Part shown: piece after piece, positions 2,523 through 33,694 of the stretch
How the letters are laid out: every line of letters begins with the position of its first letter
How positions within the stretch are numbered: position 1 is the first letter of the stretch
Assembly (NCBI RefSeq): GCF_000519265.1
Contig: NZ_KI912608.1
Span: 3,071,313-3,135,312 of the forward strand
Direction of reading: 5' to 3'
Origin: Desulfonatronum lacustre DSM 10312
GTDB taxonomy: Bacteria; Desulfobacterota; Desulfovibrionia; Desulfovibrionales; Desulfonatronaceae
Length of the DNA: 64,000 nucleotides
Position numbers and translations under genes: made by a program
Notes under the pieces: model-generated
Seen by the model: only the letters and a program-made list of their open reading frames with translations
The model's database searches: none
Told to the model about the DNA's origin: nothing

Positions 2523-2616
2523 CGCACTCCTCTGGCGGATCGGATCACGTTTCTGGAAACGGGTATCCAAAGTCAGCCGACCGCCCTCCGGATCAAAGGA
2601 AATATCAAGGCGTGTG

Positions 2617-2797
2617 GTACCTACTCAGCTCATTTTGTATCCGCCCTTGCTCCGGCAATCGGAGTCGGGGTCGCTATCGGAATCGGAATCGGAACAGCAA
2701 AAATTTTGAACGCTTCCCAGCGTTTTCGATCCCGATAGCGAAGCGCCGATCCCGACTCCGACCCCGACAACGGCGTTACTCTATGCTGAATAGTTAC
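2617..2797. mobile_element. MITE copy 1 (IS66-like ends), 181 bp
   Basis: Begins GTACCTACTCAG and ends CTGAATAGTTAC, a 12-bp terminal inverted repeat with two mismatches to the other copies. It is flanked on both sides by GGCGTGTG (2609-2616 and 2798-2805), a perfect 8-bp target duplication. The interior is two long imperfect inverted arms of GATTCCG/GATCCCG units around a small central hairpin, with no coding capacity. GTAA termini plus 8-bp duplications are features of the IS66 family; a trans-acting transposase is inferred, none is in this window. Confidence 0.88.
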
Positions 2798-3738
2798 GGC
2801 GTGTGGAGCAACTGTTCGGCCAGTTCCAGGGCATCCACGGGCCAGTAGATTTCCGGACGGGGACGGCGCACTCCGGGTAGGCCCTCCTGGGGGCGGCAGG
2901 CGAGGACGGTTTTGGTCCATCTTTCCGGCACGGCGCTCAGGCCGTGGACCGCGCCCAGCAATGCCCCGCAGATGGCGGCGTTGGTGTCCGTGTCCCCGCC
3001 GCGCATGACCGTGTCCACGATCCCGTCTTCCAGACTTGGGGCGTTGAGCAGCTGCCAGACGGCGTTGCCGAAGGCGATGAGCACCCAGCCCTGGTGATGG
3101 AGATAATCTCTTGGCGGTTCGTTGATGCAGGCTTTGATCACACGGAACAGGAGCGGGTCGGCGTCCATGTCCTGGGCCCATACGAGCATGTCGACGACAA
3201 GTTCCTTGGGATTGGCTCCGGTGGCAACGGCACGGGCAATGGCCATGGTGAAGAGGGCGTTGACCTGGAGACAAATCGGGTGGGGATGGGTCAGTTCAGC
3301 GTCTTGGACGGCCCATCGGGCCACCTGGCTCAACTCGAATCGCGAACCGAATATGCCCAGGGGGCTGATGCGCATCAGGGCCCCGTTGGCTTGGCTGTCC
3401 TGATTTGGTTCGCCGGTCAGTCCGGCGGTGATGGTCGCGCCGCGGGAGAAGGGGGCGGAGCGTAGCCAGTCGAGATAGCCCCGGTTCGCGGCCCCGGCGT
3501 CGTAGTCGCGGCGGGAAACGAGCATCCTGGCCAGGGCCAGGGCCATTTCGGAATCATCCGTGGGTTGGCCCGCGAGGGTGTCGTGCGCACCGCCGTCGGC
3601 CATGTCGCGCACCCCGTCGGGATACGCGCGCTGGATTTGCTCCGAGGACTGAAATTCCACCAGGCTTCCCAGCGCGTCGCCGGCCAGTTGCCCCAGCAGG
3701 CATCCCTGGGCTCGTTCGATGATATGTTTTGCCCGCAT
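2794..3738 (-). CDS. ADP-ribosylglycohydrolase (DraG/ARH family)
   Basis: 314 residues with the three signatures of the family: GDALG at 20-24, TDDSEM at 60-65 and GGDTDTN at 247-253, which together hold the binuclear metal site. Such enzymes remove ADP-ribose from modified arginines or other acceptors. The start lies 3 bp after the antitoxin stop, so it is translated as the third gene of the BrnT-like/RHH operon. Its last codon and stop are formed across a MITE insertion: without the element the gene would end CAC ACG CCT TGA, with it CAC ACG CCG TAA, so the protein is unchanged. All metal ligands appear intact, so activity is expected; the target is unknown. Confidence 0.88.
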   Translation of the reverse strand: MRAKHIIERAQGCLLGQLAGDALGSLVEFQSSEQIQRAYPDGVRDMADGGAHDTLAGQPTDDSEMALALARMLVSRRDYDAGAANRGYLDWLRSAPFSRGATITAGLTGEPNQDSQANGALMRISPLGIFGSRFELSQVARWAVQDAELTHPHPICLQVNALFTMAIARAVATGANPKELVVDMLVWAQDMDADPLLFRVIKACINEPPRDYLHHQGWVLIAFGNAVWQLLNAPSLEDGIVDTVMRGGDTDTNAAICGALLGAVHGLSAVPERWTKTVLACRPQEGLPGVRRPRPEIYWPVDALELAEQLLHTP

Positions 3739-3741
3739 GTT

Positions 3742-4023
3742 TTACCCTACTTCCTTCAGTCTTCCGGAAACGAGCTTGTGCAATGCCCCTGAGATGTAGG
3801 TCTGGTAGGGAATGCCTTCACGCGCGGCTCGCATCCGTAAACGTTCCAGGTCGCGAGAAGATATTCGGATATTAATCCGTTTATCTTTCTGGAGGGTTCT
3901 GCGCGCTGAGGCTTCCAGTTCCTCTTTCTCTGCTTCCAGATTGGGAATTCTCTGGAATTCTCCACGTTCAAAATCTCGAAGAATCTGTTCTTCCTCCGCA
4001 TCAAACTGCATCGTATCGGTCAT
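3742..4023 (-). CDS. Ribbon-helix-helix antitoxin (CopG/BrnA-like)
   Basis: 93 residues. The N-terminal half is acidic and helical (DAEEEQILRDFERGEF), the likely toxin-neutralising arm; residues about 47-90 form a ribbon-helix-helix DNA-binding unit (RINIRISSRDLERL then a helix with GIPYQTYI). It overlaps the toxin stop by 4 bp (ATGA), giving toxin-first order as in brnTA modules. Expected to bind its own promoter upstream of 4289. The family of this antitoxin with DUF497-type toxins is well known; the downstream ADP-ribosylglycohydrolase as a third gene is less usual. Confidence 0.82.
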   Translation of the reverse strand: MTDTMQFDAEEEQILRDFERGEFQRIPNLEAEKEELEASARRTLQKDKRINIRISSRDLERLRMRAAREGIPYQTYISGALHKLVSGRLKEVG

Positions 4024-4289
4024 GACAGATACTCCTTTGTTGCTTTGCGACTGGGGATGACGGTTTTCAGAAACCTGACGCCACTCTGTTTGATGTACGG
4101 AACCAGCCAGACATAACCGTCCATGTTCAAAATGATGATGTTCTGGCGAGGATAGCGATCCCGGTTAGGATGCCGGATGACGTCCAGTACCTGACCGTTC
4201 TCAATGCTGACCACGACATCCTCGAAGCTTATGCCTCGTGTTTGTTCGAGAAACACGTTTTTTTCCTCGCTCCAGTCAAATCTGCTCAT
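4020..4289 (-). CDS. BrnT-like (DUF497) toxin
   Basis: 89 residues. The N-terminal FDWSEEKN, the central GISFEDVV and the C-terminal FLKTVIPSRKATKEYL match the layout of DUF497/BrnT ribonuclease-like toxins, which fold like RelE and cut RNA. The strand near IIILNMDGYVWLVPYI corresponds to the core beta sheet. It is followed by an overlapping RHH antitoxin. The ATG at 4289 has only a weak ribosome site (CTCGATCC). Alternative: a degenerate non-toxic relative, since catalytic residues of this subgroup are poorly defined. Confidence 0.78.
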   Translation of the reverse strand: MSRFDWSEEKNVFLEQTRGISFEDVVVSIENGQVLDVIRHPNRDRYPRQNIIILNMDGYVWLVPYIKQSGVRFLKTVIPSRKATKEYLS

Positions 4290-4381
4290 GGATCGAGATT
4301 AAACCATGTGTGCCGTATGTCAACGGAATGCGTTTGAATTCAGCTCGGCCTTTGACGGTGAAAGGCAGGGGGCAGAGCGTC

Positions 4382-5701
4382 TTACCGCCTTCCCCCGCCA
4401 TACTGCTTGCGCCATTCGTCCAGAAACAGCAGGGCGGTTTCCAGTTCGCTGAGGGTACCTTGGCGTTGACGGATGGTCCAGATCAGGTCTTCGAAGCGGA
4501 CGGTGGGGCGCAGGTCCAGGTCCTGGAGCAGGGCGTCCACCTGGGCGCGCAGATCCGGGGAGAGGGCGGCCAGGGGGGAGGCGTCGGGGGTTGGTTCGGG
4601 AGCGCCGGAGTCTGTTTTGGTCCGTGCCGCGCCCAGGCCGAGGCGGTCCTGGAGGAATGCCAGCAGGGTCGCCATGCGGTGCTGGTAGGTGTGCTCGCGC
4701 AGCACCCGTTCCCGGGCCAGGCGGCTCATGGCCAGGCGCTCTTCGGGGTGGGCCAGGTAGTGGTGGATGGCGTCGCGCAGATCGTCCATGTTCTCGAACA
4801 CGGCCAGCTCCCGGTCCGTGAACAGTTCGGCCAGCAGGCCGCGGCGGTCCACCAGTTGGAACGCTTGGCAGGAGGCCAGTTCGAAGGTCCGGGGGTTGAC
4901 GAAGTCGCCGCCGGGAACCAGGGGATCGGCCTTGACGCTGGAGTGCAGGTTCAGGTTGATCTTGGCGGCGTTGAAGATCTTGACCGCCTCCTCCGGGGTG
5001 ATCCGTTCCCCGGGGCGTTGCAGCAGCGGAGTCAGGGGGCCGTGAGTGGGCCAGTCGTTGCCCCAGATCTTGAAGTCCAGGGACAGGAATTGGCGGAAGG
5101 CGACCAGGCGGTTGGGATATCCCGCTCCAAGGAAGGAGAGGTCCGATCCGTAGCGGCGCTGGTCCACGGCGGACAGCTCCCGGGTGATCTCCAGGGGGCG
5201 GTGAAAGTCCGGGTCCGCGGCCAGGGGCAGGTAGAGGGCGTTGCGCTGGTCCAGCTCTTCCAGCAGGCCGAAAAACGGCTCCTTCTGGATCACCGCGAAG
5301 GCGTCGTAGAGCCGGGCGAAGGCTTTCCAGTAGGGAAAGACCTGATAATCCTCCACGAACCACATGGCCGTGGGCACCTTGTCCCGGCGCAGGCGTTGCA
5401 GGGCCTGGCGGCTTAACGGAGCCTGGGCCAGGGCCAGGACCAGGTCCGGCTCGAAATGTTCCACCTTGGCCAGGACGGTCTGGGCCACGAGTTGGAGGAA
5501 GCCGTTTTCCAGGGCCACCAGCCGATCCGCGGCAATGCGCTGTTCCTTGAGGGCCCGGAATGCGCCGTGAAATTCCGGAGCCTCGAAGCACTCCACCGTA
5601 TGGCCCAGGGCGCGCAGGGCCCGGACGCAGTAGCGGCCGATGGGCAGGGACCCGCCGTACATGGGCAGGACCGTGAGAATTCGCAGGGGCGTGGAGGTCA
5701 T
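4382..5701 (-). CDS. CgeB-like glycosyltransferase
   Basis: 439 residues. The N-terminal Rossmann half starts with a strand (RILTVLPMYGGSLPIGRY) and the middle contains DLSFLGAGYPNR; the C-terminal part (about 255-345) has the GT-B donor-site pattern (NPRTFELASCQAFQLVD, then ELAVFENMDDL and a helix of the Glyco_trans_1_2 type). This is the layout of CgeB/DUF3880 proteins, which are predicted sugar transferases acting on surface or flagellar glycans. Its start overlaps the stop of the upstream GT9 gene by 4 bp, so the two are translationally coupled and probably act on the same glycan. The region after 360 is proline/alanine rich with a helical tail, not recognised. Confidence 0.8.
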   Translation of the reverse strand: MTSTPLRILTVLPMYGGSLPIGRYCVRALRALGHTVECFEAPEFHGAFRALKEQRIAADRLVALENGFLQLVAQTVLAKVEHFEPDLVLALAQAPLSRQALQRLRRDKVPTAMWFVEDYQVFPYWKAFARLYDAFAVIQKEPFFGLLEELDQRNALYLPLAADPDFHRPLEITRELSAVDQRRYGSDLSFLGAGYPNRLVAFRQFLSLDFKIWGNDWPTHGPLTPLLQRPGERITPEEAVKIFNAAKINLNLHSSVKADPLVPGGDFVNPRTFELASCQAFQLVDRRGLLAELFTDRELAVFENMDDLRDAIHHYLAHPEERLAMSRLARERVLREHTYQHRMATLLAFLQDRLGLGAARTKTDSGAPEPTPDASPLAALSPDLRAQVDALLQDLDLRPTVRFEDLIWTIRQRQGTLSELETALLFLDEWRKQYGGGRR

Positions 5702-6945
5702 GGCGTGTCGATCATCCAGTCAGGTTCATGGTACAGGGCTTCAGCCGCGGTCTGCTCCAGAAGGACCCGACGCGGGACGATCCGCAGCCGGTGGGAGCGC
5801 AGCAGCTCGCGGCGGGCCGTTCGGGCTTCCTGGTCCGGCAGTTCTCCGGCCAAGGGGTGGAACTCCAGGCCGAAGTCGTCCAGTCCGGTGCGCAGCAGGC
5901 AGAGGGATTCCGGCGGAGCGGGATGGTTGGTCCGCTCCGGTCCAGCGGACGGGGCCGATCGGGCCAATCGGGCCAGGACGGCCTTGTCCGCGAAGGCCTG
6001 GGCGCAGGCCGCGGACCGGGGGCAAGGCGCGGCTTCCAGGCAGGGAGCGCAGGGTTCCACGGATTGCCAAACCTGATGGCCTTCGCCATAGGGTCCGGTC
6101 TCGAAGGCCCAGGCCGAGGAAAGGAAAAAGGCCGTGACCGGGGTGCCCAGGTGCGCGGCCAGGTGCATGGTCCCGGTGTCCGGGGTGAGCAGCAGGTCCA
6201 GCCCTTGGACCACGTCGCGCAGACCGGTCCAGCCGGTGCGCCCGGTGAGGTCGTTCAACCTGGCCTGGATCGTGGCCGGGAGCAGGGGCCGCAACGCTCT
6301 GGCCGGTTCGCGCTCCGCAGTCGTTCCCAGCAGATGAATCCAGCCGTCGATCCGGGCCGCCGCGGCCTGGATTACCCTGGCCAGGATGGGAACCGGCAGG
6401 GTCCGCCGGGCATGGCGTCCGGCCAGGACCACGCCCAGCCCTCCGCCCTTGGGCGTTGCCGGAGGGTTGACCAGGGCCGGGGATTGGGAAGGGTCAAGAA
6501 AAAAACCCCAATAGTCCATCAGATTCAGGGGATTGGCCGTTCGGTGCGCACTGAGCCGGAAGACCGTTTCCGGCCACGCACCTCGCAGCGCCTGGCCCTG
6601 ATGCCACCGATAGCCCACGACCTGCTCCGGCGCGAACAATCCGGCCAGGACATGGTTGAAGCCTGAATGGTTCAGGTTGTAGACCCGGACCACGTCCGCG
6701 GCCTTCCAGGCGGAGAAGATATCGGCGCAGGAGCGGATCAGGGTCGCGGGTTCCGAATGCGGGTCATGGACCGGCAGGCCGTGGACCATCACGTCCGGAT
6801 AGATCATCTCGGCCAGTTCAACCAGCCCGGCGTCCACGGCCAAATGGACCTGGTTGCCGGGGTCGGCCAGCAGGCCGCGAATCAGCCGTTTGGTCTGGAT
6901 GATATCCCCGAAGCGGGCCAATTGGATGATAAGATGCACGTTCAT
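5698..6945 (-). CDS. Glycosyltransferase family 9 (heptosyltransferase-like)
   Basis: About 415 residues from the ATG at 6945; an in-frame ATG at 6969 is possible and neither has a clear ribosome site. The N-terminus (LIIQLARFGDIIQTKRLI) is the acceptor-domain start of ADP-heptose:LPS heptosyltransferases, and LLTPDTGTMHLAAHLGTPVTAFF carries the conserved donor-site DTGxxHxA motif. A cysteine cluster (CAPCLEAAPCP) follows at the place where GT9 proteins of this type often have CxxC. It is cotranscribed with the CgeB-like gene. The window also contains hldD, which makes ADP-heptose, supporting an LPS-core or flagellin glycan role, though the acceptor is unknown. Confidence 0.85.
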   Translation of the reverse strand: MNVHLIIQLARFGDIIQTKRLIRGLLADPGNQVHLAVDAGLVELAEMIYPDVMVHGLPVHDPHSEPATLIRSCADIFSAWKAADVVRVYNLNHSGFNHVLAGLFAPEQVVGYRWHQGQALRGAWPETVFRLSAHRTANPLNLMDYWGFFLDPSQSPALVNPPATPKGGGLGVVLAGRHARRTLPVPILARVIQAAAARIDGWIHLLGTTAEREPARALRPLLPATIQARLNDLTGRTGWTGLRDVVQGLDLLLTPDTGTMHLAAHLGTPVTAFFLSSAWAFETGPYGEGHQVWQSVEPCAPCLEAAPCPRSAACAQAFADKAVLARLARSAPSAGPERTNHPAPPESLCLLRTGLDDFGLEFHPLAGELPDQEARTARRELLRSHRLRIVPRRVLLEQTAAEALYHEPDWMIDTP

Positions 6946-6990
6946 GGCGGTTGCCCGAATGATTCCCATTCAGCAAGGCGCAAACAGTCC

Positions 6991-7110
6991 GGGCATGCCC
7001 TGAGTCGAAATCGAGATCGAAATCGGAATCGAAATCGTTCTTTCCGCCATTCTCGCGACATACCTGTTTTTATCGATTTCGATAGCGATTTCGATTTCGA
7101 TCTTGAGCAA
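6991..7110. repeat. GAAATCG-type inverted-repeat element A
   Basis: Left arm 7002-7037 is built from ATCGAA/ATCGGA hexamers, right arm 7071-7102 from the complementary CGATTT units, with about 33 bp between, so the transcript would fold into a long imperfect hairpin. The left edge carries GGGCATGCCCTGAGTCGAAATCG, similar to the edge of elements B and D. It fills the space between rpe and the GT9 gene. Confidence 0.75.
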
Positions 7111-7145
7111 ATTTGTCGTCTTCTGTTCGTCCATTTGCAAGGTCG

Positions 7146-7820
7146 CTATTCTCTCTTCACGGCCCGCATGAAGGTTTCCAGGCGGTCTGCATAGGGCGGG
7201 AAGCCGAAAAAAGCTGAGCCGGAGACGAAGACGTTGGCGCCCAAATCGGCCAGCTCGCGGATGTTTTCCGGGCTCACGCCGCCGTCCACCTGGATGAAGG
7301 TCTCAGCCCCGGCCTCCTGGATCATGGCCCGGAGACGCTGGATTTTTTGCCTGGTGAAGGGGATGAACTTCTGGCCGCCGAAGCCGGGATTCACGGTCAT
7401 GATCAGGACCATGTCCAACTGAGGCAGCAGATATTCCACCATGTCCAGCGGGGTGTGCGGGTTCAGGGCCACTCCGGCCTTGGCGCCCAGGCGCGTGATT
7501 TCGGAAACGGTCCGCTCCAGATGCACGCAGGCTTCGGCGTGGACGCAGAGCAGGTTCGCCCCGGCGTCCACGAACTCTGCCAGGTAGCGGTCCGGCTGTT
7601 CGATCATCAGGTGGACGTCGAAGAACAGCCCGCAACTCTTGCGGCAGGCCTTGATCACCGGCGGGCCGAAGGTGATGTTGGGCACGAAGGCCCCGTCCAT
7701 GACGTCCCAGTGCACCCATTGCAGCCCGGCCTGCTCCAGGGCGGCCAGTTCCTCGCCGATGCGGCTGAAGTCCGACGAGAGCAGGGACGGGGTGAGAATG
7801 ATGGGGGGCGTGCTCGGCAT
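7146..7820 (-). CDS. rpe: Ribulose-phosphate 3-epimerase
   Basis: 224 residues, the usual length. It interconverts D-ribulose 5-phosphate and D-xylulose 5-phosphate in the pentose phosphate pathway, in the cytosol. Visible signatures: N-terminal TPSLLSSDF, HWDVMDGAFVPNITFGPPV with metal-binding His and catalytic Asp, DVHLMIEQP, VNPGFGGQKFIP and the second catalytic Asp in QVDGGVSPEN. A GGAGA ribosome site precedes the ATG. It lies 10 bp downstream of glpX on the same strand, so the two form a sugar-phosphate operon. Confidence 0.97.
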   Translation of the reverse strand: MPSTPPIILTPSLLSSDFSRIGEELAALEQAGLQWVHWDVMDGAFVPNITFGPPVIKACRKSCGLFFDVHLMIEQPDRYLAEFVDAGANLLCVHAEACVHLERTVSEITRLGAKAGVALNPHTPLDMVEYLLPQLDMVLIMTVNPGFGGQKFIPFTRQKIQRLRAMIQEAGAETFIQVDGGVSPENIRELADLGANVFVSGSAFFGFPPYADRLETFMRAVKRE

Positions 7821-7830
7821 TGGCGGTCTC

Positions 7831-8835
7831 CTAGTGCGAGTCGGTTTTATTGTATTCGATGGAGCTGATGCGCATCAGTTTGGAGAAGGAATGCTGGGCC
7901 TCGATCCGGCGGAAGGTTCCGGTTCTGCCGCGCATGACCATGGAGTGGGTCACCGCGCCCTTGCCGGTAAATTCGACGCCCTTGAGAAACGTTCCCCCGG
8001 AAATGCCGGTGGCCGCGAAAAAGACGTCGTCGCTACGGACCAGATCGTCCACGGTCAGGACGCGGTTCACGTTGTATCCGTTCTCCTCCACGGCCCGGCG
8101 CTCGTCGTCGGACTGCGGGTCCAGCATGCACTGCATCTCCCCGCCCATGATCCGGATGGCCACTGCGGCCAGCACGCCTTCCGGGGTCCCGCCGGTACCG
8201 ATCATCATGTCCACCTCGCCGCCCGGGGTCGTGGCCATCAGGGCTCCGGCCACGTCGCCGTCCGTGTGCAGCTGGATGCGGGCTCCGGCTTCGCGGATTT
8301 CCTTGATCAACTTTACGTGCCGGGGCTTGTCCAGGATAAAGACCGACAGGTCATCCACGGACTTGCCCAGGGCCTTGGCCACCCGGCGCAGGTTCTCGGC
8401 CACCGGGGCCTTGATGTCCACCTGGTATTTGGCCTCGTGGGGCACGGCCATTTTTTTCATGTAGAAAGCCGGGCCGGGATCGTAAAGCGTTCCACGCGGG
8501 GCCAGGGCGACCACGGCGATGGCGTTGGGTCGGCCGTAGGCCAGCAGGCGCGTGCCTTCCACCGGGTCCACGGCCACGTCCACTTCCGGCCCGTTGCCCG
8601 TGCCGAGCTTCTCTCCGTTGTAGAGCATCGGGGCTTCATCCTTTTCGCCCTCGCCGATGACCACCACGCCGTCGATGTCGATGGCGCTGAAGCTCAGGCG
8701 CATGGCCTCCACCGCGGCATAATCGCCGCGCTCTTTGTCGCCTTTGCCCAGCCAGCGGGAAGAGGCCAGGGCCGCGGCCTCGGTCACCCTCGCCAGGTCC
8801 AGGGCCAAATTGCGTTGCGGGGTTTCTTGGGACAT
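7831..8835 (-). CDS. glpX: Fructose-1,6-bisphosphatase, class II (GlpX)
   Basis: 334 residues. It hydrolyses fructose 1,6-bisphosphate in gluconeogenesis and needs a divalent metal. The GlpX metal/phosphate segments are visible: GEGEKDEAPMLYNGE, DVAVDPVEGTRLLA, and GTGGTPEGVLAA near the C-terminal half. I chose the ATG at 8835 because GGAGGAG stands seven bases before it; the ATG at 8853 would lie inside this signal. It is followed by rpe. An autotroph-like or gluconeogenic need for FBPase fits an organism growing on lactate or C1/C2 compounds. Confidence 0.95.
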   Translation of the reverse strand: MSQETPQRNLALDLARVTEAAALASSRWLGKGDKERGDYAAVEAMRLSFSAIDIDGVVVIGEGEKDEAPMLYNGEKLGTGNGPEVDVAVDPVEGTRLLAYGRPNAIAVVALAPRGTLYDPGPAFYMKKMAVPHEAKYQVDIKAPVAENLRRVAKALGKSVDDLSVFILDKPRHVKLIKEIREAGARIQLHTDGDVAGALMATTPGGEVDMMIGTGGTPEGVLAAVAIRIMGGEMQCMLDPQSDDERRAVEENGYNVNRVLTVDDLVRSDDVFFAATGISGGTFLKGVEFTGKGAVTHSMVMRGRTGTFRRIEAQHSFSKLMRISSIEYNKTDSH

Positions 8836-8876
8836 GAACGTCTCCTCCATCATGCATTATTTGCTTGAGAAAATGT

Positions 8877-8973
8877 AGTTTTCGGCGTCGGAGTCGGGAT
8901 CGGGGTCGATGATGTTTGTGCGCCAACAACCAGAATTCGATCCCGATTCCGATCCCGATAGCGACACCGAAAG
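8877..8973. repeat. GATTCCG/GATCCCG inverted-repeat element C
   Basis: Left arm TTTTCGGCGTCGGAGTCGG onwards (8878-8909) pairs imperfectly with the right arm 8937-8972 that ends GCGACACCGAAAG, leaving a 27-bp loop. Composed of the same GATCCCG/GATTCCG units as the interior of the MITEs, but no TAC-type termini or target duplications are visible. It lies in the glpX upstream region, between it and the unknown gene ending at 8998. Confidence 0.65.
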
Positions 8974-8997
8974 AGAATTATTGAAATGAAAATTGTA

Positions 8998-9957
8998 TCA
9001 CTCCAGCAAGTCCGCCGCCTGCTCCACGGTTTGCACGTCGCCCAGGTTGCGGCGCATGATCTGGTGGATCGGGGCGTAGGCATTCGCGGTTCTCCTGATG
9101 AGTTCGATCAGCTCCAGTTCGTCCCGGATGGCCTCCGGATCGAAGTGCTGTTCGACGATGCCCAGCATCCGCCGCGTTTCGAAATTGTGCGCTTGCCGGA
9201 CCCGTTCCATTTCCTCGGCCTGGTCCAGGTAGCGCAGCAAGGTCTCGCGGCGCTTGGCCAGGGCCGTGGGAATATCATCTCCGGAATACTCCAGAAAAGC
9301 CAGGGCCCACCGGATCACGTCCAGAGGGCGGCGTAGCGGCGTTTTCGGCTTGGGTACGTTTGGGTCGGGCTTGGGATCCGGTTCTTGATCCGAGCCGGGG
9401 AGGCAACCGTGCAGCAAGGTCAGGATAAAGGTCTCCTGGCTCGGGGTCCAGGGCAGTCGGGCTTGTTTGCAGGCCAAGGCCAGGCTCGCCGCGAGCTCTT
9501 GTCGACCCGATGTGGTCGAAGCGCGGAGAAGATGATGAATCGGTCCCGGCAGACTCTTGCCCAGACGCAGACGGCTTGCCAGCAGGCAGGCTTCGTCCTG
9601 GGCCAGGGTCAGCCACATTTCAGTTCGGTCTGGAAGGCGTAAACGCAACCCGGCATGGGCTAGCAGAGCGGCCACGGTATCCTGGTCCGGCATGACGGCC
9701 TTGTCGTCGCGTTGTTTTCGTTCCAGCAGCCAGCCTTCCACGGCCAAGCCCAAGGGCTGGTCTGGAAACAGCACCAGGTCGCGCATGGACCAGGCTTCGG
9801 CGTCGTCCGGGTCGGTCAAGCGGGCGGCGAGTTCCTCCGCCTCAGCGCCTCCCAGAACCTGGGAAATGGTGGTCAGGGCCGCTCCGTCCAGGTCCATGCC
9901 CTTTTCCAGAAGGGAACGGATCAGGGCCGCGAGTTCGGTGTCCGGTCGTTCGTGCAT
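8998..9957 (-). CDS. Hypothetical protein, acyl-CoA synthetase partner
   Basis: 319 residues that I do not recognise. Predicted soluble and mostly helical, rich in leucine and alanine, with a proline-charged linker at about 200-215 (EPDPKPDPNVPKPK) that splits it into two helical parts, and conserved-looking acidic helices at the C-terminus (ELELIELIRRTANAY). No signal peptide or membrane segment. It starts 9 bp after the stop of the acyl-CoA synthetase gene, so the pair is an operon and the protein may act in the same lipid or acyl process; that link is inference from position only. Confidence 0.7.
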   Translation of the reverse strand: MHERPDTELAALIRSLLEKGMDLDGAALTTISQVLGGAEAEELAARLTDPDDAEAWSMRDLVLFPDQPLGLAVEGWLLERKQRDDKAVMPDQDTVAALLAHAGLRLRLPDRTEMWLTLAQDEACLLASRLRLGKSLPGPIHHLLRASTTSGRQELAASLALACKQARLPWTPSQETFILTLLHGCLPGSDQEPDPKPDPNVPKPKTPLRRPLDVIRWALAFLEYSGDDIPTALAKRRETLLRYLDQAEEMERVRQAHNFETRRMLGIVEQHFDPEAIRDELELIELIRRTANAYAPIHQIMRRNLGDVQTVEQAADLLE

Positions 9958-9966
9958 GGCGGTTCG

Positions 9967-11736
9967 TCAGAACGGCGGCGAGGCGCTGGTGTAGAGATAG
10001 CGCTTGATTTTGTGGGTCGGGGTTTTTTCAAAGGCCTCGGTCTGCTCGATCATCTTGCTGACCCGGGCAAAGGAGGCCAGTCCGGCGTTGGTGCGGGCCC
10101 GGATGGTTTCCAGAAGGTCGGTGACGTACTTGCGGGCCTCGAATTCGCTCATCTTCCGCCAGGAAACCTCTTCGTCCAGCCGGTCATAGTCCAGGAAGAC
10201 CCGGGCCGCGACCTTGCCGTTCAGGTCAAAGGCCAGGGATTCCAGGACGTAATCCTGTTCGTTCAGGACGTTCTCGATCTCCTCAGGGTAGATGTTCTCC
10301 CCGCTGGGGCCGAGAATCAGGTTCTTCAGGCGGCCGCGGATGAACAGATAGCCGTCCTTGTCCAGCGTGCCCAGGTCCCCGGTGCGCAGCCAGCCGTCCT
10401 CTGTGAAAACTTCGGCGGTCAACTCCGGCTCCTGGTAATACCCTTGCATGACATTGGGACCGCGGACCTGGATTTCTCCGACAACCTCGCCGTCGGCCCG
10501 TCCTCGGGGCGGCGAATCGCTCTCCTGCTGCACGGCGATGCGGATCTCGACGCCGTTCAGAGCGCGACCCGAGGAACGCCGACGGACGCTCGCCGCGCCG
10601 GTCCCGGCCACCAGGGGCGATGCCTCGGTCAACCCGTAACCCATGGCATAGGGAAAACCGGCTTCGCGTAAAAAGGTCTCCGCTTCCACGGACAGGGGGG
10701 CTCCCCCGATACAGTAGCCGCGCAGGCTGCCGCCAAATGACTGGTACATCTTTTTCCCGGCGAGCTTGTGCAGCAGACCTCGGCTCAGGTTGAAGCGATA
10801 CAGGGTCCGGCCCACGGCGCTGCCGGTGAGTTTGGGCTGAATGCGGCGCTTGAAGATCTTTTCAATCACCAGCGGGACGCTGAGCATGAACGTGGGGCGG
10901 ATCTTGGCCATGGCGTCCATCAGCATTTGCGGCGAGGGGACCCCGCCGAGGTACCGGACCTGGGTCCCGTGCATCATGGGCAGCAGCAGACCCAGGGTGA
11001 ACTCCATGGTGTGGGCCAGGGGCAGGATGGAGAGCATCCGGTCCCGCGGCCCCAGGTCCACCAACTCCCGGGTCATCCAGGCGTCGGAAACCACGTTGCG
11101 GTGGGTGAGCATCACCCCTTTGGCCCGCCCCGTGGTCCCGGAGGTGTAGACGATGGAGGCCAGGTCGTCCTCCTTGGGGGTCGCCGGAGTGCCGTGGCCG
11201 GTCACGTGCCGGGCCAGGGATTGCAGGCGTTCCCGGTCCTTGAGGCTGGAGCGGATCACGTCCTTGACCCGACCGGCCCAGGATTCCGGAGGCAAAATCC
11301 GGAAGTCGTCCAGGACGATCACGGTCAGGTGCTGCTGGTTCAGGTCTTCCAGTTTCGCCAGGCAGCGTTGCGAGGCCATCAGCACCTTGGCCCCGCTGTG
11401 TCGGAGAATGTGCAGGACCGAGGACGGGTGAAAGTCCGGGAGAATCGGGACCAGCACGGCTCCCAGGGAGCTGGCGGCGAAATAGACCATGGGCCATTCC
11501 GGCCGGTTTTCACTGAAAATGGCTACTCTGTCCCCATGGCCCACTCCAAGGTGGGTCAGGGTTTCGGCATGTTCCCTGATCTTGGTTCGGAATTCGGCAT
11601 AGGTGATGGGGTCTCCCTCCACCAGGCCGAGGAGCGGGCGGTCGCCGAACAACGAGACTCCGCGGTCCAGGGTTTCGGGTACGGTGCGGGGAGGGGCTTG
11701 GGGAGTGAAGCCGTCGTTTGTTTGCGTCGTGGTCAT
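9967..11736 (-). CDS. Long-chain acyl-CoA synthetase / AMP-dependent ligase
   Basis: 589 residues of the ANL superfamily. The P-loop-like motif YTSGTTGRAKG is at 197-207, the adenine-binding GYGLTEASP at about 353, GWLRTGDLG at about 450, and the hinge RGRLKNLILGPSGENIYPEEIE follows, as in FadD-type long-chain ligases. It activates a carboxylic acid with ATP and transfers it to CoA. The C-terminal lysine region (KTPTHKIKRYLY) is present, so it should be catalytically complete. Followed by an unknown gene 9 bp downstream. Substrate chain length cannot be told. Confidence 0.9.
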   Translation of the reverse strand: MTTTQTNDGFTPQAPPRTVPETLDRGVSLFGDRPLLGLVEGDPITYAEFRTKIREHAETLTHLGVGHGDRVAIFSENRPEWPMVYFAASSLGAVLVPILPDFHPSSVLHILRHSGAKVLMASQRCLAKLEDLNQQHLTVIVLDDFRILPPESWAGRVKDVIRSSLKDRERLQSLARHVTGHGTPATPKEDDLASIVYTSGTTGRAKGVMLTHRNVVSDAWMTRELVDLGPRDRMLSILPLAHTMEFTLGLLLPMMHGTQVRYLGGVPSPQMLMDAMAKIRPTFMLSVPLVIEKIFKRRIQPKLTGSAVGRTLYRFNLSRGLLHKLAGKKMYQSFGGSLRGYCIGGAPLSVEAETFLREAGFPYAMGYGLTEASPLVAGTGAASVRRRSSGRALNGVEIRIAVQQESDSPPRGRADGEVVGEIQVRGPNVMQGYYQEPELTAEVFTEDGWLRTGDLGTLDKDGYLFIRGRLKNLILGPSGENIYPEEIENVLNEQDYVLESLAFDLNGKVAARVFLDYDRLDEEVSWRKMSEFEARKYVTDLLETIRARTNAGLASFARVSKMIEQTEAFEKTPTHKIKRYLYTSASPPF

Positions 11737-11800
11737 GGCGGCCCTCGAAATAAGTTGAGATGATGAATTGAAATGGAGCGGCGGAGTCGGACCGCGGAGC

Positions 11801-12775: not shown

Positions 12776-13283
12776 GCTCTCCTCCTCAGTGCGCTGTCAT
12801 AAAAGTTTCCCGCGCTCCGGCCACGCGCTCTTGTCGGCTGTACCTCGGAGTCTTGTTCGCTGGCAAGCATCGCGGGGAGATCGCGAGGAGAAAATGCTTT
12901 CATCGCTTCCCGTCGAACTGCCCGCTGTTTTGGGAGTCATCCAATGTCCTTCGGAAGCGAAGCGAGATCCGGCACGATGATGGCGTATTCCCATATCATC
13001 CATGCCGTGGGATGTGTTCTCACTAAAAAAACAGCCCTGCTGGAGTTGATTGAAGTGACCATGTTCCGTGGAGTTCTCATTTGATTGAAATGAAGAAGCG
13101 GGTCGGAGAATTGGAGATGAAAAGCGTGGTTTATTGGAAAACACAATTGTCAGGAAGGTTGTCGAGATGTTTTTTATGGATGTCGTCAATGCAATATGAA
13201 TCTCAATGCTTGACTTAAGCGGCCTTTTTGTTATGAGTGCATTTGTTCGTTCGTCATTCATATTTTTTGAAAGGAGATTCACA
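12776..13283. other. Divergent intergenic region between hldD and mucR
   Basis: 508 bp with lower GC toward the mucR side. Open frames across it (for example 12797-13300 on the minus strand) have no ribosome site and no recognisable product. It must hold the promoters of both hldD and mucR. MucR/Ros proteins typically repress their own genes by binding AT-rich sites with T-A steps, and the stretch 13090-13260 is the obvious place for that; no defined operator is seen. Confidence 0.5.
13210..13237 (+). promoter_or_regulatory. Candidate sigma-70 promoter of mucR
   Basis: TTGACT (13210-13215) and TATGAG (13232-13237) separated by 16 bp, about 47 bp before the mucR ATG. A good -35 and moderate -10 match; no transcription start is known. 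Confidence 0.4.
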
Positions 13284-14479: not shown

Positions 14480-14613
14480 CGGCATGCTTTGGGTCGAAAT
14501 CGCAATCGAAATCGCAATCGAAATCGGTATCGAAATCGAAAAACAAGTTCGCCATTGAATGACGGCGATTTCGATTTCGATCCCGATTTCGATTCTGACC
14601 CAAGGCCAACCCT
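14480..14613. repeat. GAAATCG-type inverted-repeat element B
   Basis: Left arm 14493-14540 consists of ATCGCA/ATCGAA units, right arm 14564-14594 of CGATTT units, loop about 23 bp. Edges GGCATGCTTTGGGTCGAAATCG and, on the other side, CCAAGGCCAACCCT recur in element D in the opposite orientation, so this is a defined element and not random low complexity. It separates ahbB from hemL. Confidence 0.75.
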
Positions 14614-17915: not shown

Positions 17916-17947
17916 ACGTCGCGGGAGCCGACCGAAGACAAAAAAAC

Positions 17948-18129
17948 GTAACTACTCAGTACATTTTGTGTCCGATCTTGCACCGGCAATCGGTGTCGGG
18001 GTCGGCGCTACGCTATCGGAGTCGGAATCGAAACAGGAAGAATTTAGAACGCATCCCGGCGTTTTCGATCCCGATTTCGATTCCGATTCCGACCCCGGCA
18101 ACAGAATTACTTTTGTGCTGAGTAGTTAC
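17948..18129. mobile_element. MITE copy 2 (IS66-like ends), 182 bp
   Basis: GTAACTACTCAG (17948-17959) and CTGAGTAGTTAC (18118-18129) are perfect 12-bp terminal inverted repeats. Left flank AAAAAAAC (17940-17947) and right flank nine As followed by CC are compatible with an 8-bp duplication of an A-tract that later slipped. The interior shares most of its sequence with copy 3 (for example AGAATTTAGAACGCATCCC). Inserted in the 5' A-tract of a bidirectional terminator. Confidence 0.85.
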
Positions 18130-18135
18130 AAAAAA

Positions 18136-18174
18136 AAACCGCCCAGGCAGGGATACGGCCTGGGCGGTTTTTTT
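18136..18174. terminator. Bidirectional terminator between cobJ and the RRM gene
   Basis: Stem AAACCGCCCAGGC / GCCTGGGCGGTTT (13 bp) with a 9-base loop; Ts on the + side (18168-18174) and As on the other (18130-18138) allow use by both convergent genes. Confidence 0.92.
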
Positions 18175-22865: not shown

Positions 22866-22905
22866 TGGATGCGAGGGTTGTTTTCTGTTGTTCAGCGAAA
22901 AGTAC

Positions 22906-23862: not shown

Positions 23863-23939
23863 AAGGATTCTCCGGTGGTGACGAAGCAGGTGAAAGATAT
23901 GGGTGGGCTGCTGGCTGGGTGTCGGAAAGTCATTCTTCG

Positions 23940-24063
23940 GCAGTCCGTTCAAAAAAAACAGTTGCAAGGAGCTAAAAGGCTCAAGCTCGAAGCGTATTTC
24001 TTCATACGTGAGAGTTTGAACTTTTTTTGGCGACAAGGCAATTGGGAGTTTTTCAACGGACTG

Positions 24064-24064
<1 letters not shown>
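23940..24064. repeat. 125-bp repeat element, copy 1
   Basis: Terminal inverted repeat GCAGTCCGTTCAAAAA (23940-23955) and TTTTTCAACGGACTGC (24049-24064), 15 of 16 matched. Inside is an inner hairpin CGTAT-TTCTTC-ATACG and the shared block GAGAGTTTGAA. It lies between metY and cysK and its right edge supplies the last base of the metY TAG. No target duplication seen. A second full copy is at 42742-42866 in the same orientation. Confidence 0.85.
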
Positions 24065-25853
<1,789 letters not shown>

Positions 25854-25865
25854 GGAGTCGGCTTA

Positions 25866-25888
25866 ATGTCTATGAATTCAGTAGACAT
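25866..25888. promoter_or_regulatory. Candidate Rrf2 operator
   Basis: ATGTCTA (25866-25872) and TAGACAT (25882-25888) are a perfect 7-bp inverted repeat around a 9-bp centre TGAATTCAG, 12 bp before the rrf2 ATG. The size (23 bp) suits a dimeric winged-helix repressor such as Rrf2 proteins. The centre itself contains the palindrome TGAATTCA. Confidence 0.6.
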
Positions 25889-25961
25889 AGTTGGCGAAAG
25901 AAACGGCGTCAAGTCCCGGTTTGAAGTTGGTGGCAACATCAGCAAGAGGTGGAGCGCGCTC

Positions 25962-26506
25962 TACCTTTTCTCCACCTCTTCCCACGCAAACCCGGCAATG
26001 TTCCGCTCCTCGGGCTCGAATTCCACGCCGATCAGGTAGACCGTTGTCCAGGATCGGCTTGTCGTACTCGTCCACCAGAATCACTACCTGTCGACCAAAT
26101 GTGTCGTGCAGGGTCTTGATCAAGTCGGCAAACCGGGTTCGCAGGTCCGTGTAAACCGAGGTGATCGCGTAGGCCTTGGCATGCTCATCCAGGATATAGG
26201 AAAACGCCCCTTGGAGCTCATCCAGGCTGCGCGTCACCCCGGAGCCGAAGCTGACATGAACCACCGGATGGACGGTCTCCCAGTCCCAATTGTGTTCCAG
26301 ATACAGCCCCTGGAACAGCTCCTTCTTGCCCTGAAACGCGGCCTTGATGGTGCTGAGCAAGAGGCTTTTTCCGAAACGTCGGGGCCGGGAGAGGAAGTAG
26401 TATTTCCCCTCATCGCGAAGTCCGGCGACAAACGAAGTTTTATCGACATACGCGAAGTTCTCTCGAATCATATTCTCGAACGTCTGGATGCCGATGGGCA
26501 GTTTTT

Positions 26507-26510
<4 letters not shown>
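25962..26510 (-). pseudogene. AAA-ATPase-like / PD-(D/E)XK protein, internally deleted
   Basis: Residues 1-155 are a good match to the N-terminus of the AAA-ATPase-like family (KLPIGIQTFENMI, YVDKTSFV, Walker A-like RPRRFGKSLLLST, Walker B VILVDEYDKPILDN). Right after DKPILDN the sequence changes frame to VYLIGVEFEPEERNIAGFAWEEVEKR, which is the usual extreme C-terminus of the same family and stops at 25962-25964. So a block of roughly 300-plus residues, holding the nuclease domain, has been deleted with a frame shift. The open frame that remains is nonsense after the junction. It overlaps the hybrid kinase stop by 4 bp, so it was translationally coupled to it. Full-length relatives are about 500-560 residues. 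Confidence 0.85.
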
Positions 26511-29908
<3,398 letters not shown>

Positions 29909-29942
29909 GCGCCGCTTCTCCTGGTCAGCTCGAGGGTAGGGG

Positions 29943-30794
29943 CTAACGGAGGGCTTCGCGGAAGCCGTCGTACAGGGAATCGTCCAGCACGGAAAAACCG
30001 GCCGCGGGCCAGCCGACCATCTCTTTCATGGCCGTATTGAAGGGATGGTCCAGTGGCATGGCGTCCAGGGCTTCTTGGTACATGGCCGCCCGCTCCGGGT
30101 TGATGTGGCCCGGTGAAACGATGGCGTCCAGAGGGATGGGGTCGGATTTGAGCAGGACCCGGAAGATGTCTCCGTGGGTCTGAACCGCGCTGTGGTAGGT
30201 TCCGTCGGAAACCGCGCCCAGGTCGATGGAGCCGGCCACCAGGGCCTCGATGATCCGGTCGTGGCGTTTGAGGAAAAAGACGTTGCGGAAGTACGTCTCC
30301 GGCTCAATGCCCAGGTTGCGGAGCATCATGGCCGGGTAGGCGTAGCCGGAGGTGGACCCCGTGTCCGTGAAACCCATTCTTTTGTCCTGGGCCTGGGATA
30401 ATTCCGTGATCGCGCTCTCTTTCAAGGTGATAATGTAGGAGTGGTAGTAGGGGATGACCTCCCCGGCGTCCTGGTTGAATTCCATGTAGGTGGCGATATA
30501 TTGCAGGGCGGGCAGCCGCTCTTTGAGTTTGAGGTAGTTGACCGGGTTGAGCCAGGCGATATCCACGGAGCGGTCCTCCAGGCGCAGGACCATTTCATTG
30601 TAGTCACGGGTGATGGTCGGGGTGATGGTTTCCCCGGTCCGATCGCTGAGGTACTCGGCCAGGATGCGCATGGGCGGAAGCAGTTTCTGGGGGTCGGTCA
30701 TGGGGTAGACGGCGAGGCGCAACTCCCCGGCCGCCGTGGAGACGGTGAACGGGAAAACCATGATGGCCAGGCAAATCAGAAAAATGCGTCGCAT
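29943..30794 (-). CDS. PhnD-like periplasmic phosphate/phosphonate-type binding protein
   Basis: 283 residues with a signal peptide (about 1-22, cleavage after STAAG). Class II periplasmic binding fold: LRLAVYPMTDPQKLLPPMRILAEYL, the DIAWLNPVNYLKL and FTDTGSTSGYAYPAMML segments match the PhnD/TctA-like family that binds phosphonates or related anions. No ABC permease or ATPase is nearby; instead the hybrid kinase follows by 34 bp. This layout is known for binding proteins that present a ligand to a sensor kinase rather than feed a transporter. A GGAGGA ribosome site precedes the ATG. The ligand is not defined. Confidence 0.88.
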   Translation of the reverse strand: MRRIFLICLAIMVFPFTVSTAAGELRLAVYPMTDPQKLLPPMRILAEYLSDRTGETITPTITRDYNEMVLRLEDRSVDIAWLNPVNYLKLKERLPALQYIATYMEFNQDAGEVIPYYHSYIITLKESAITELSQAQDKRMGFTDTGSTSGYAYPAMMLRNLGIEPETYFRNVFFLKRHDRIIEALVAGSIDLGAVSDGTYHSAVQTHGDIFRVLLKSDPIPLDAIVSPGHINPERAAMYQEALDAMPLDHPFNTAMKEMVGWPAAGFSVLDDSLYDGFREALR

Positions 30795-30815
30795 GCTCGA
30801 TGTCCTCCGTGTCCC

Positions 30816-30992
30816 TCAGCACGTTGATTTCGCGAAATCATCCATCCCCAGGGCAAGGCAGACCCGGTTTCGACCCTGGGATTTCTCCCGGTAAAGCTGT
30901 TCGTCGGCCCGGGCCACGAACTTATCCGGCGTGGTGGTCTGGTCGCAGCGAGTCATGATCATCCCCAGGCTGATGGTGACGTATCCGATCGA
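30816..30992 (-). pseudogene. GGDEF (diguanylate cyclase) C-terminal remnant
   Basis: The minus strand reads GYVTISLGMIMTRC, FVARADEQLYREKSQGRNRV and stops at 30816-30818. This is the end of a GGDEF domain: the VTISLG strand and the ADEQLYREKSQGRNRV helix. The GGDEF active-site loop and everything before it are missing; upstream sequence is the tail of alr. So only about 58 codons survive. It sits in front of the PhnD-like gene on the same strand. Confidence 0.8.
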
Positions 30993-32158
30993 GCATGATC
31001 GAGGTCTCCTTGACTCGCCTCGGACGAGGCGACGTATTCCCGCGGATTCATTCCCAGCATGCAGAAGACTTCATACGGAATTGTCCCCCACCAGGAGGAC
31101 AGTTCTTCCGGCGTAATCGCGTCACCTTCGTCCGGGCCCAGCAGCACGGCCATGTCTCCGGGCGCGACGCCGGGAACGTGGGACACGTCTACGGCGGTCA
31201 TCTGCATGCACACCCGGCCGAGGACTTTGACCCGTTGACCGCGCAGCAGCATCCAGCCCTTGTTCGACAATCCCCGTGAATAGGCGTCCGCGTACCCGGC
31301 GGCGACCACGGCCACGGTCTTGTCCCGGTCCGCGACAAAGGTCCGTCCGTAGGAGATGGACGCCCCCTTGGCCAGGGGATGCACGGCCAGCACCGGAGCC
31401 TGGACGCGCATGGCCGGGCGCAGATCTCGGCCCAGATATTCCAATTCAGTGCCGTGGAATGGGTTGGCCCCGTAAAGGGCGATGCCCGGTCGCTGCCGGT
31501 CCCAGGCCAGTTCAGGATAGGCCAGGAGCCCCGCGGAATTGGTCAGGGAGCAGCGTGGGAGTATTCCAGCGGTCGTGAGGCCGGACTGGAGACGGGCCTG
31601 GACGATCAGGTACCGGGTCGCCTGTTCCCGGACGAATTCCGCCTGGTCGGGGTCGTCCGCAGTGGCCAGGTGGCTGAACAGCCACCGAGGTTCCACATCG
31701 CGGCAGTGGGCCAGGGTCTCCAGGACCATGTCCACCTCCGCATGGTTAAAGCCCAGCCTGGCCATACCCGTGTCGAACTTCAGGGCCACCGCGGCCCGGC
31801 GCTTTGTCGCGTCGGCGGCGGTCTGGAGCCACGTCAACTGGTCGTGTCGCGCGGCTACCGGCACGATATCGCGTTGCACCGCCTCGCGGGCCTCTTCGGA
31901 GGACTGGGGACCCAGCAGGGCGAACACGGTCCCCCGGACCTCCGGGCGCAATCGGGTCGCCTCGGCCACCGTACCCACGGCGAAACAGTCCGCCCCGCTC
32001 TCCGCCAAGGCTTTGGCAACGGGGATCAATCCGTGACCGTAGGCATCGGATTTGATCACGGCGATCAGCCCGGTCCCCCGGGAGCGCAACAGCCGAAAAT
32101 TATCCTGGATTGCGCCAAGGTCCACGGTGACCCGGAGCAGGTTGGAGTCAATGGGCAT
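30959..32158 (-). CDS. alr: Alanine racemase
   Basis: About 399 residues from the ATG at 32158 (AGGA ten bases before). It makes D-alanine for peptidoglycan with PLP. PLP lysine K36 sits in AVIKSDAYGHG, the catalytic tyrosine is in ISYGRTFVAD, and the C-terminal beta domain ends IPYEVFCMLGMNPREYV. The final 22 residues (ASSEAS...SAWG) go past the normal end, into the GGDEF remnant read in another frame. This suggests that the original stop was lost by a deletion or recombination at the same junction. The core is complete, so activity is expected. Confidence 0.92.
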   Translation of the reverse strand: MPIDSNLLRVTVDLGAIQDNFRLLRSRGTGLIAVIKSDAYGHGLIPVAKALAESGADCFAVGTVAEATRLRPEVRGTVFALLGPQSSEEAREAVQRDIVPVAARHDQLTWLQTAADATKRRAAVALKFDTGMARLGFNHAEVDMVLETLAHCRDVEPRWLFSHLATADDPDQAEFVREQATRYLIVQARLQSGLTTAGILPRCSLTNSAGLLAYPELAWDRQRPGIALYGANPFHGTELEYLGRDLRPAMRVQAPVLAVHPLAKGASISYGRTFVADRDKTVAVVAAGYADAYSRGLSNKGWMLLRGQRVKVLGRVCMQMTAVDVSHVPGVAPGDMAVLLGPDEGDAITPEELSSWWGTIPYEVFCMLGMNPREYVASSEASQGDLDHARSDTSPSAWG

Positions 32159-32214
32159 GATGCGAGCGTCCTGTTCGGTCAATTGCCGTTCGATTTCGCG
32201 GTAATGATTTCAAA

Positions 32215-32754
32215 CTACAGCACGTCTTCAATGGCCAGTTCCGCCACGTCCACGTCCACGGCCAGCCAAACCAGTTCGAGGTCCCTGGCGAAGAAATAGT
32301 GAGCCTGCCCCTGGCCCAAGGCCATGTAGAAAACGACGTCGTTTTTGACGCGGGGCATCAGGTGAGAAAAGCCGTGGCCTTCCTTGGCCATGATCTCGGC
32401 CATCTCTTCCATGTCCGTCACGACCCGTCGAGGATCGTCGTACAGGGAAACGTAATACGTGGCCGAACCCGGAGGCCCTTTGTATTCGGCAATGTAGTTG
32501 GCTTGGGTGGCCACGTCCCCGTGATGCATCCGGTTGATGATCGCGGCGGCGCGCCGGCCGTCGATCAGCTCGACCAACTCCATTCCGGCGATGGTTCGAG
32601 GGATGAATTCAGGGATGGAAGAAGACGCTTGGTCCGCTGTTTGATCCGCCGCCGCCGGGATCGGCATGTAGACGGTGATCAGGGCGAGCAGGATGATAAC
32701 GGCGGGGGTCGGGTGCAGGGTAATCTTCGGAGAAGAAGATGCATGGAGCCGCAT
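32215..32754 (-). CDS. Hypothetical secreted protein
   Basis: 179 residues; a hydrophobic segment at about 16-34 (AVIILLALITVYMPIPAAA) is a probable signal peptide. The mature part has a mixed alpha/beta pattern (GMELVELIDGRRAAAIINRMHHG, ATYYVSLYDDPRRV, DVVFYMALGQGQAHYFFA, LVWLAVDVDV), which resembles a small periplasmic domain I cannot name. AAGGAAC precedes the ATG. Ends 57 bp before alr on the same strand and may be cotranscribed. Confidence 0.72.
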   Translation of the reverse strand: MRLHASSSPKITLHPTPAVIILLALITVYMPIPAAADQTADQASSSIPEFIPRTIAGMELVELIDGRRAAAIINRMHHGDVATQANYIAEYKGPPGSATYYVSLYDDPRRVVTDMEEMAEIMAKEGHGFSHLMPRVKNDVVFYMALGQGQAHYFFARDLELVWLAVDVDVAELAIEDVL

Positions 32755-32835
32755 AACGACGTTCCTTGATAGCTGGTGGGTTGATCGAACGTAACGCGGG
32801 GAGACCCGTGCGATCCGGGCCTCTCCGCGTTGATT

Positions 32836-33207
32836 TCAATTTTTGACCGTCACGTCCACGACGTTTTGGCGGGCGATGCTGATTTCTTGGCCTCCTTCCT
32901 GCTTCACGAAGACGTGCATGAAGCCCATGACTTCATACGCTCCATCCTCCAGGGCGGAGGTGTCCCATCGGACCGGAAAATACGTGTCCTGGTCCTCGGA
33001 CTCTCCGATCTTCACCCAGGTGCTTTCGCCTTTCTTCCGGTAATACCAGGGGTTGGTAATCCTGTTAACCGGGCCCTTGATGTTAAGTTTCGCCAATTGC
33101 TTGGCCAGTAATTCCCTGTCCAGATCCTCACGCAGCAGAATCGTGCCGGAGTAGACCTGAGACACCTCGGTGGGCACGATGAAGAGTGGTCCCCAGTTGT
33201 ACGACAT
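32836..33207 (-). CDS. Hypothetical protein, beta-rich
   Basis: 123 residues; no signal peptide or membrane segment. It begins MSYNWGPLFIVPTEVSQVYSG and contains NPWYYRKKGESTWVKIGES, TYFPVRWDTSALEDGAYEVMGF, a pattern of paired strands resembling a fibronectin- or immunoglobulin-like fold. I do not recognise the family. Start chosen at 33207 because AAGGAGG precedes it; a longer frame from 33273 lacks such a signal. Followed by the secreted protein gene at 32754 in the same direction. Confidence 0.72.
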   Translation of the reverse strand: MSYNWGPLFIVPTEVSQVYSGTILLREDLDRELLAKQLAKLNIKGPVNRITNPWYYRKKGESTWVKIGESEDQDTYFPVRWDTSALEDGAYEVMGFMHVFVKQEGGQEISIARQNVVDVTVKN

Positions 33208-33394
33208 GACGCGCCTCCTTTTTTCGATGCTGATTTCTCGGTGCTCTCTCGACGTTTTGAACTGATCGATCACGGATCGGTCGGTTACCTGGAAAACCGT
33301 GTATACACTTTCCCGTTATCCAACTCCATCAAGCAAAGCAACCGACTACAGCCGAACATGGGAGATTTGTTCTCGATTCTCACACGCTATTAGG

Positions 33395-33694
33395 ATCGGT
33401 ATCGAAATCGTGATCGAAATCGAAATCGAAATGAACGTCATATCCTACGAGGTGCTGTAATTACAGTAATGCGCAGTATTTGTAACTACTCAGTACATTT
33501 AGAGCCCGCTCTTGCTCCGGCAATCGGTATCGGGGTCGGCGCTTCGCTATCGGAATCGGAATCGAAACAGGAAGAATTTAGAACGCATCCCAGCGTTTTC
33601 GATCCCGATCCCGATTCCGATTCCGACCCCGGCAACAGAATTTCTCTGTGCTGAGTAGTTACCAGTATTTTTCGACTTCGATACCGATTTCGAT
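33395..33694. repeat. GAAATCG-type inverted-repeat element E, interrupted
   Basis: Left arm 33395-33432 (ATCGGTATCGAAATCG then ATCGAA units) and right arm 33671-33694 (GACTTCGATACCGATTTCG) pair with each other; MITE copy 3 with its target duplication lies between. Removing the MITE gives one continuous hairpin element of about 110 bp like A, B and D. Confidence 0.65.
33482..33662. mobile_element. MITE copy 3 (IS66-like ends), 181 bp
   Basis: GTAACTACTCAG (33482-33493) and CTGAGTAGTTAC (33651-33662) are perfect inverted ends, flanked by CAGTATTT at 33474-33481 and 33663-33670, a perfect 8-bp target duplication. Interior highly similar to copy 2. Inserted inside element E. Confidence 0.9.

Follow-up and report, generated by a model that had tools for sequence, protein, structure and literature searches.

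Miniature inverted-repeat transposable elements (MITEs) are usually seen as shrunken insertion sequences (ISs), and internal deletion of an IS is the standard model for their origin. REPIN and BIME repeats are likewise dispersed short palindromes, but they have neither 8-bp duplications nor GTAA ends and are mobilized by RAYT (HUH) proteins. Here we describe a MITE family with the 12-bp inverted end GTAACTACTCAG, three copies of which lie in a window of 64,000 bp (positions 3071313-3135312) of the complete, single-contig genome (3.76 Mb) of Desulfonatronum lacustre DSM 10312. Like this family, MITECca01 of Cardinium reaches a high copy number and has kept little beyond the ends of its parent IS; unlike it, MITECca01 belongs to the IS982 family, is about 240 bp long, is known from one strain only and still coexists with its parent (PMC9769881). 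The MITEs of “Candidatus Thiomargarita nelsonii” also exist in many copies and form hairpins, and their authors found no parent IS (PMC4853749). For one of them, in hupL, 10-bp direct and 19-bp inverted repeats are described (PMC4853749). ISDge4 of Deinococcus geothermalis, a member of the ISBst12 group of the IS66 family whose transposition has been observed, resembles the MITEs in its ends (GTGACTACTCAGCA / GTAACTGCTCAGCA) and its 8-bp repeat, whereas it is autonomous, encodes one 449-aa transposase and resides in an unrelated host; the MITEs are gene-free and have only the ends in common with it (PMC12898284).

Our analysis indicates that the MITEs of D. lacustre were very probably moved in trans, with an 8-bp stagger, by an ISBst12-group IS66 transposase encoded by a single open reading frame (ORF), the gene for which has since been lost. 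The origin of their cores is read with less confidence below.

A large MITE family with 8-bp target duplications

The three copies lie exactly where the first-pass annotation of the window had placed them (Table 1) and can be aligned over their full length. The window contains six matches to GTAACTACTCAG at up to two mismatches, and these coincide with the ends of the three elements; in 100 shuffled versions of the window the mean was 0.89 matches, and none reached six. The 12-bp terminal inverted repeats that had been claimed are perfect in copies 2 and 3, while copy 1 carries one substitution in each end. The inverted ends reach about 16 bp, with bases 13 to 16 being mostly CACA or TACA. Perfect 8-bp target duplications are indeed present at copies 1 and 3. 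Copy 2 lies in an A-tract, as had been noted; its flanks, AAAAAAAC on the left and AAAAAAAAAC on the right, can be read as a duplication of 8 bp in which the tract has slipped by two As.

Relatives provide the corresponding empty sites. In the same-genus genome G002 (locus L384), the copy 2 site is clean and empty, GGAGAC-ATAAAAGAAAACCGCC, with a single A-tract, and copy 2 is also absent at the orthologous site in the same-genus genome G004 and in G006. The copy 1 site of G002 has no element either; an 8-mer-like stretch (GGCGTTGA) occurs there once, along with some local sequence that is unrelated. An 8-mer standing twice at an empty site, which the annotation had named as evidence against transposition, was found at neither site of G002. 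Fixed-length duplications in the family and the empty orthologous site of copy 2 are both characteristic of MITEs.

In the whole genome, the 12-bp end occurs 91 times in forward and 86 times in reverse orientation at up to one mismatch (reversed-pattern control, 1 and 4), from which we estimate about 85 elements. Among the matches listed, at least 73 elements of 149 to 239 bp were paired in selected stretches, and 64 of these 73 can be aligned to copy 3 along 150 bp or more. Perfect 8-bp duplications flank 36 of the paired elements and duplications with one mismatch another 11, against 0.014 and 0.33, respectively, expected by chance when the left flank of one element is paired with the right flank of another. 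The target sites are AT-rich (38% GC versus 50% in the flanks). The predicted large population is therefore real; its mobility was fairly recent, with a median nearest-neighbor identity of 96.8% and 99.5% in the best pair, but there is no sign of continuing movement. A stop-to-stop test for depletion of insertions in genes, with 82% versus 97% of points in frames of at least 150 codons, is uninformative in so GC-rich a genome. Being shorter than 300 bp, without coding capacity, bounded by inverted ends of 12 to 16 bp, flanked by duplications and present in many copies, the elements are MITEs, as first annotated.

It is extremely improbable that these repeats are instead structural or regulatory sequences (REP/BIME-like repeats, terminators or RNA elements). 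Such a role would fit their strong foldback (median z of -4.9 in this genome with the ends removed) and the position of many copies in intergenic regions or beside terminators, as in the case of copy 2. However, the 36 perfect duplications and the empty site speak against it, no copy matches Rfam (the window yields three tRNAs only), and compensatory covariation is lacking in the core: 5 of 1,777 cells were compensatory, all in one pair, and 1 of 28 pairs showed any compensatory change. Single copies may nevertheless have a domesticated role.

IS66 elements with matching ends and the missing transposase

The GTAA termini and 8-bp duplications had been taken as traits of IS66, and complete IS66 elements with both features exist in other genomes. 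Two of them, L344 and L345 of the Bathymodiolus japonicus gill symbiont, are 1706 bp long, carry perfect GTAACTACTCAGCG at both ends and are flanked by perfect 8-bp duplications (AAAAATAA and TATTTGTT); they resemble the MITEs studied here in ends, duplications and AT-rich targets, but they are autonomous and numerous. The sole large ORF of L344, which has no TnpA or TnpB, encodes a 475-aa IS66 transposase (NF033517, 297 bits with a cutoff of 180; PF03050, 1.3e-48). A third element, L346 (Bathymodiolus symbiont, 1385-3645), shares these ends and is likewise flanked by a perfect duplication (AAATTACA); at 2261 bp, it is about 555 bp longer than the 1706-bp element. In an order-wide search, PF03050 matched in 47 of 199 genomes. 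Among the IS66 elements of this order, near-identical ends are found in L166 (1717 bp, GTAACTATTCAGCT at both ends) and L136 (1727 bp, GTAACTATTCAG / GTAACTATTCAC), and in L163 a 375-aa N-terminal piece of an IS66 transposase begins directly after GTACCTACTCAG, the left end of copy 1. The MITE ends are identical over 12 to 14 bp to those of L344, L345 and L346.

In a phylogeny of 20 IS66 transposases, the ends GTA(A/C)CTA(C/T)TCA(G/C) correspond to one clade (support, 100/99), while the transposases of canonical three-ORF IS66 elements (GTAAGCG ends, TnpA-TnpB-TnpC) form a separate clade. Membership of the MITEs in the canonical group was rejected because their end sequence diverges after GTAA. 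Given the matching ends and duplications, the clade specificity of the ends and the likeness to ISDge4, we file the MITEs as non-autonomous ISBst12-group elements and infer from ends and duplications that a transposase of this group moved them.

The annotation had gone further and proposed an IS66 transposase in the same genome as the likely mobilizer, which was not supported. The complete genome holds neither an IS66 transposase nor a relic of one: it has no match to PF03050 (positive controls worked), to a profile of the relevant IS66 transposases or to the closest complete transposase (E ≤ 1), so that an IS66 element in this genome is ruled out as the current mobilizer. A remnant exists in the same genus: contig C27 of G004 encodes the last 96 residues of an IS66 transposase, 64% identical to that of L344; the stop codon of this piece falls within a perfect CTGAGTAGTTAC. 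The gene adjoining this fragment is, by our own reading, presumably IS1634-like. The mobilizer thus seems to have been lost from D. lacustre, which leaves a host with about 85 MITE copies and no mobilizer, and in the absence of the partner the copies are stranded unless a new IS66 element arrives. A resident partner transposase does not define membership in the family, but current mobility depends on it.

Several observations weigh against this history. The genome has no IS66 transposase and yet contains copies up to 99.5% identical, G002 with its roughly 30 MITE copies likewise lacks an IS66 gene, and the autonomous partner was never seen in the host itself. Furthermore, a good duplication is lacking at 26 of the 73 paired elements, among them both members of the most similar pair (596470-596651 and 2322868-2323056). 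Recombination between elements, which would swap ends, was rejected as the cause of the missing duplications (3 swapped 8-mers found, 5.2 expected); our guess is that adjacent deletions removed them. The high identity in the absence of IS66 would also be explained by a transposase of another family that is still encoded in the genome and has the same ends and 8-bp stagger. We consider this very improbable, as all complete elements that we found to have these ends code for an IS66 transposase and the end sequence tracks the IS66 transposase clade. In the stretches around the copies, which were searched for pairs of ends separated by up to 3 kb, no non-IS66 element with these ends was found, and no duplication-bearing end pair exceeds 438 bp.

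We retain an ISBst12-group mobilizer, probably since lost, for which the following course is suggested. The transposase would have recognized GTAACTA(C/T)TCAG ends and inserted the elements with a staggered 8-bp cut, preferably at AT-rich sites. Only the terminal 12 to 17 bp would be IS-derived, whereas the interior of about 130 to 150 bp would be a foldback built from the hexamer (N)TCG(G/A)(N), repeats of this type having been scattered through the genus beforehand. Existing hairpin repeats of this kind may have been captured between two IS66 ends, with the transposase gene disappearing later.

Core types and distribution across phyla

In this genome, these ends enclose at least three unrelated core types, and every type has one or more copies flanked by a perfect duplication (Table 1). 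Hexamer hairpins without ends lie in the same window, a plain shuffle of which gave no comparable hexamer runs, and they are also present in relatives with few or no MITEs. Within the hexamer family, the lengths of the core arms vary by 6-bp steps on each side independently (Spearman 0.17, P = 0.18), and slippage of the hexamers is evident. Because the arms are uncorrelated and covariation is lacking, we do not argue that the hairpin is under selection in this family. The Bathymodiolus symbiont has MITEs of its own (174 to 176 bp) with the same ends and perfect duplications, whose cores are unrelated to the hexamer cores and which have only the terminal 14 to 17 bp in common with the co-resident IS.

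Beyond the genus, the strict pattern GTAACTACTCAG-N130-160-CTGAGTAGTTAC was searched in one genome per species and gave at least 120 matches, with about 0.03 expected by chance on a simple base-count estimate. The bacterial matches listed include Chloroflexi, Ignavibacteriales, Calditrichota, Bacteroidetes, Nitrospirae, Beggiatoa-type and methanotrophic Gammaproteobacteria, Accumulibacter, Leptolyngbyaceae, Leptospiraceae and Fusobacteriaceae, and one archaeal assembly (Methanophagales) is also among them. Most of the matched assemblies are binned, so that single taxon labels may be wrong. The 121 listed pairs have 64 perfect 8-bp duplications and 17 with one mismatch. The element spacing in this search was set by the pattern; when listed without a spacing limit, 30 facing pairs, paired by hand, had a median of about 170 bp, and 28 of the 30 fell between 113 and 217 bp. 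End counts reach 296 + 285 in a 2-Mb Mariprofundales assembly and 228 + 211 in a Thiomargarita assembly (controls, 0 to 3). Only 3 of 395 genomes of the host's own phylum contain the strict pattern, and the distribution is broad but patchy and not ubiquitous. Assemblies of Mariprofundales, Thiomargarita, Thiotrichaceae, Parabeggiatoa and Anaerolineae have 130 to 300 ends per strand, far above D. lacustre. Viral contigs were rejected as carriers, with 1, 1 and 0 matches for three spacings.

Among the matches listed, 118 cores fall into 58 clusters (E of 1e-5), and 37 of the 118 have end-less relatives within the few kilobases fetched around them. The folding z across taxa has a median of -4.3, with 76% of cores below -2 (flanking DNA, -0.1), meaning that foldback is typical but not universal.

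These data bear on whether the core is instead an internally deleted IS66 element that subsequently diverged, its hexamers being shared with the end-less hairpins through slippage or convergence. This origin fits the standard MITE model; the independent 6-bp steps of the arms indicate that hexamer arrays can grow by slippage, and about 4 bp beyond the 12-bp ends (CACA/TACA) are conserved. On the other hand, core similarity to IS66 ends after the terminal 14 to 17 bp in the one comparable pair from the same genome, three or more unrelated cores share one genome, the cores across taxa form 58 unrelated clusters, and hexamer hairpins occur without ends here and in MITE-poor or MITE-free relatives. 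We thus regard a deletion origin as unlikely, although it keeps an appreciable share of the probability, and favor capture of hairpins between IS66 ends.

A more general form of capture is tentative and in our judgment falls slightly short of an even chance: the end specificity of GTAACTACTCAG may have packaged unrelated, pre-existing host hairpin repeats independently in many bacterial lineages and in at least one archaeal assembly. Under such a modular arrangement, a constant frame of ends would enclose exchangeable hairpin cores at a size of about 150 to 190 bp, and mobilization may require, or benefit strongly from, a foldback core, for example, because it unites the ends. The 12- to 14-bp end is nearly all that is shared with the parent IS, while the cores are unrelated to it and vary between and within genomes. 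In the open-access literature, to which our coverage is confined, we found no paper that describes a MITE with this end; the novelty of a constant set of ends, spacing and duplications that encloses unrelated and mostly foldback cores across phyla is therefore provisional. If the arrangement is general, one 12-bp word at fixed spacing would provide a handle for a large unannotated class of mobile repeats, and both the birth of MITEs and the help of hairpins in transposition would become testable.

Insertion sites and other repeats

Copy 1 has entered an ADP-ribosylglycohydrolase gene at its 3′ end, and the TAA stop codon of the gene now lies inside the end of the element (2794-2797); the protein has thus been re-ended by the insertion. 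The A-tract that received copy 2 adjoins a hairpin terminator, and copy 3 separates the two arms of a hexamer hairpin that is older and lacks the ends.

Table 1. MITEs, core types and neighboring features (window positions unless marked as genome positions)
Feature	Position	Strand
Target duplication GGCGTGTG, left of copy 1	2609-2616	.
MITE copy 1, 181 bp, ends GTACCTACTCAG / GTAACTATTCAG, hexamer-repeat foldback core	2617-2797	+
Target duplication GGCGTGTG, right of copy 1	2798-2805	.
ADP-ribosylglycohydrolase gene	2794-3738	-
Left target copy of copy 2, AAAAAAAC	17940-17947	.
MITE copy 2, 182 bp, perfect GTAACTACTCAG ends	17948-18129	+
Right target copy of copy 2, AAAAAAAAAC (two-A slip)	18130-18139	.
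Hairpin terminator, arms	18132-18148 / 18158-18174	
Target duplication CAGTATTT, left of copy 3	33474-33481	.
MITE copy 3, 181 bp, perfect GTAACTACTCAG ends	33482-33662	+
Target duplication CAGTATTT, right of copy 3	33663-33670	.
Older end-less hexamer hairpin around copy 3, arms	33400-33425 / 33670-33695	
15-bp direct repeat CCGACTACAGCCGAA	33342-33356 and 33709-33723	
End-less hexamer hairpin, same repeat type as MITE cores	7004-7033	
End-less hexamer hairpin, not a MITE	8881-8959	.
End-less hexamer hairpin	14517-14593	.
End-less hexamer hairpin	45090-45113	
Main core type, hexamer repeats		
Second core type, CCCGCCTTCGCGGG type (examples, genome positions)	2285223-2285386 and 2962849-2963020	
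Third core type, 224-225 bp (genome position)	648800-649024	

The 15-bp direct repeat, with a spacing of 367 bp, encloses both the older hairpin and copy 3. Several end-less hairpins of the genus (window positions 8840-9000 and loci L037, L041 and L051) seem to be framed by GAGAAAATGCAGTT-TCGG ... CCGAAAGAGAA, and this GAGAAAATGCAGTT/CCGAAAGAGAA frame may represent another repeat family that shares the core type.

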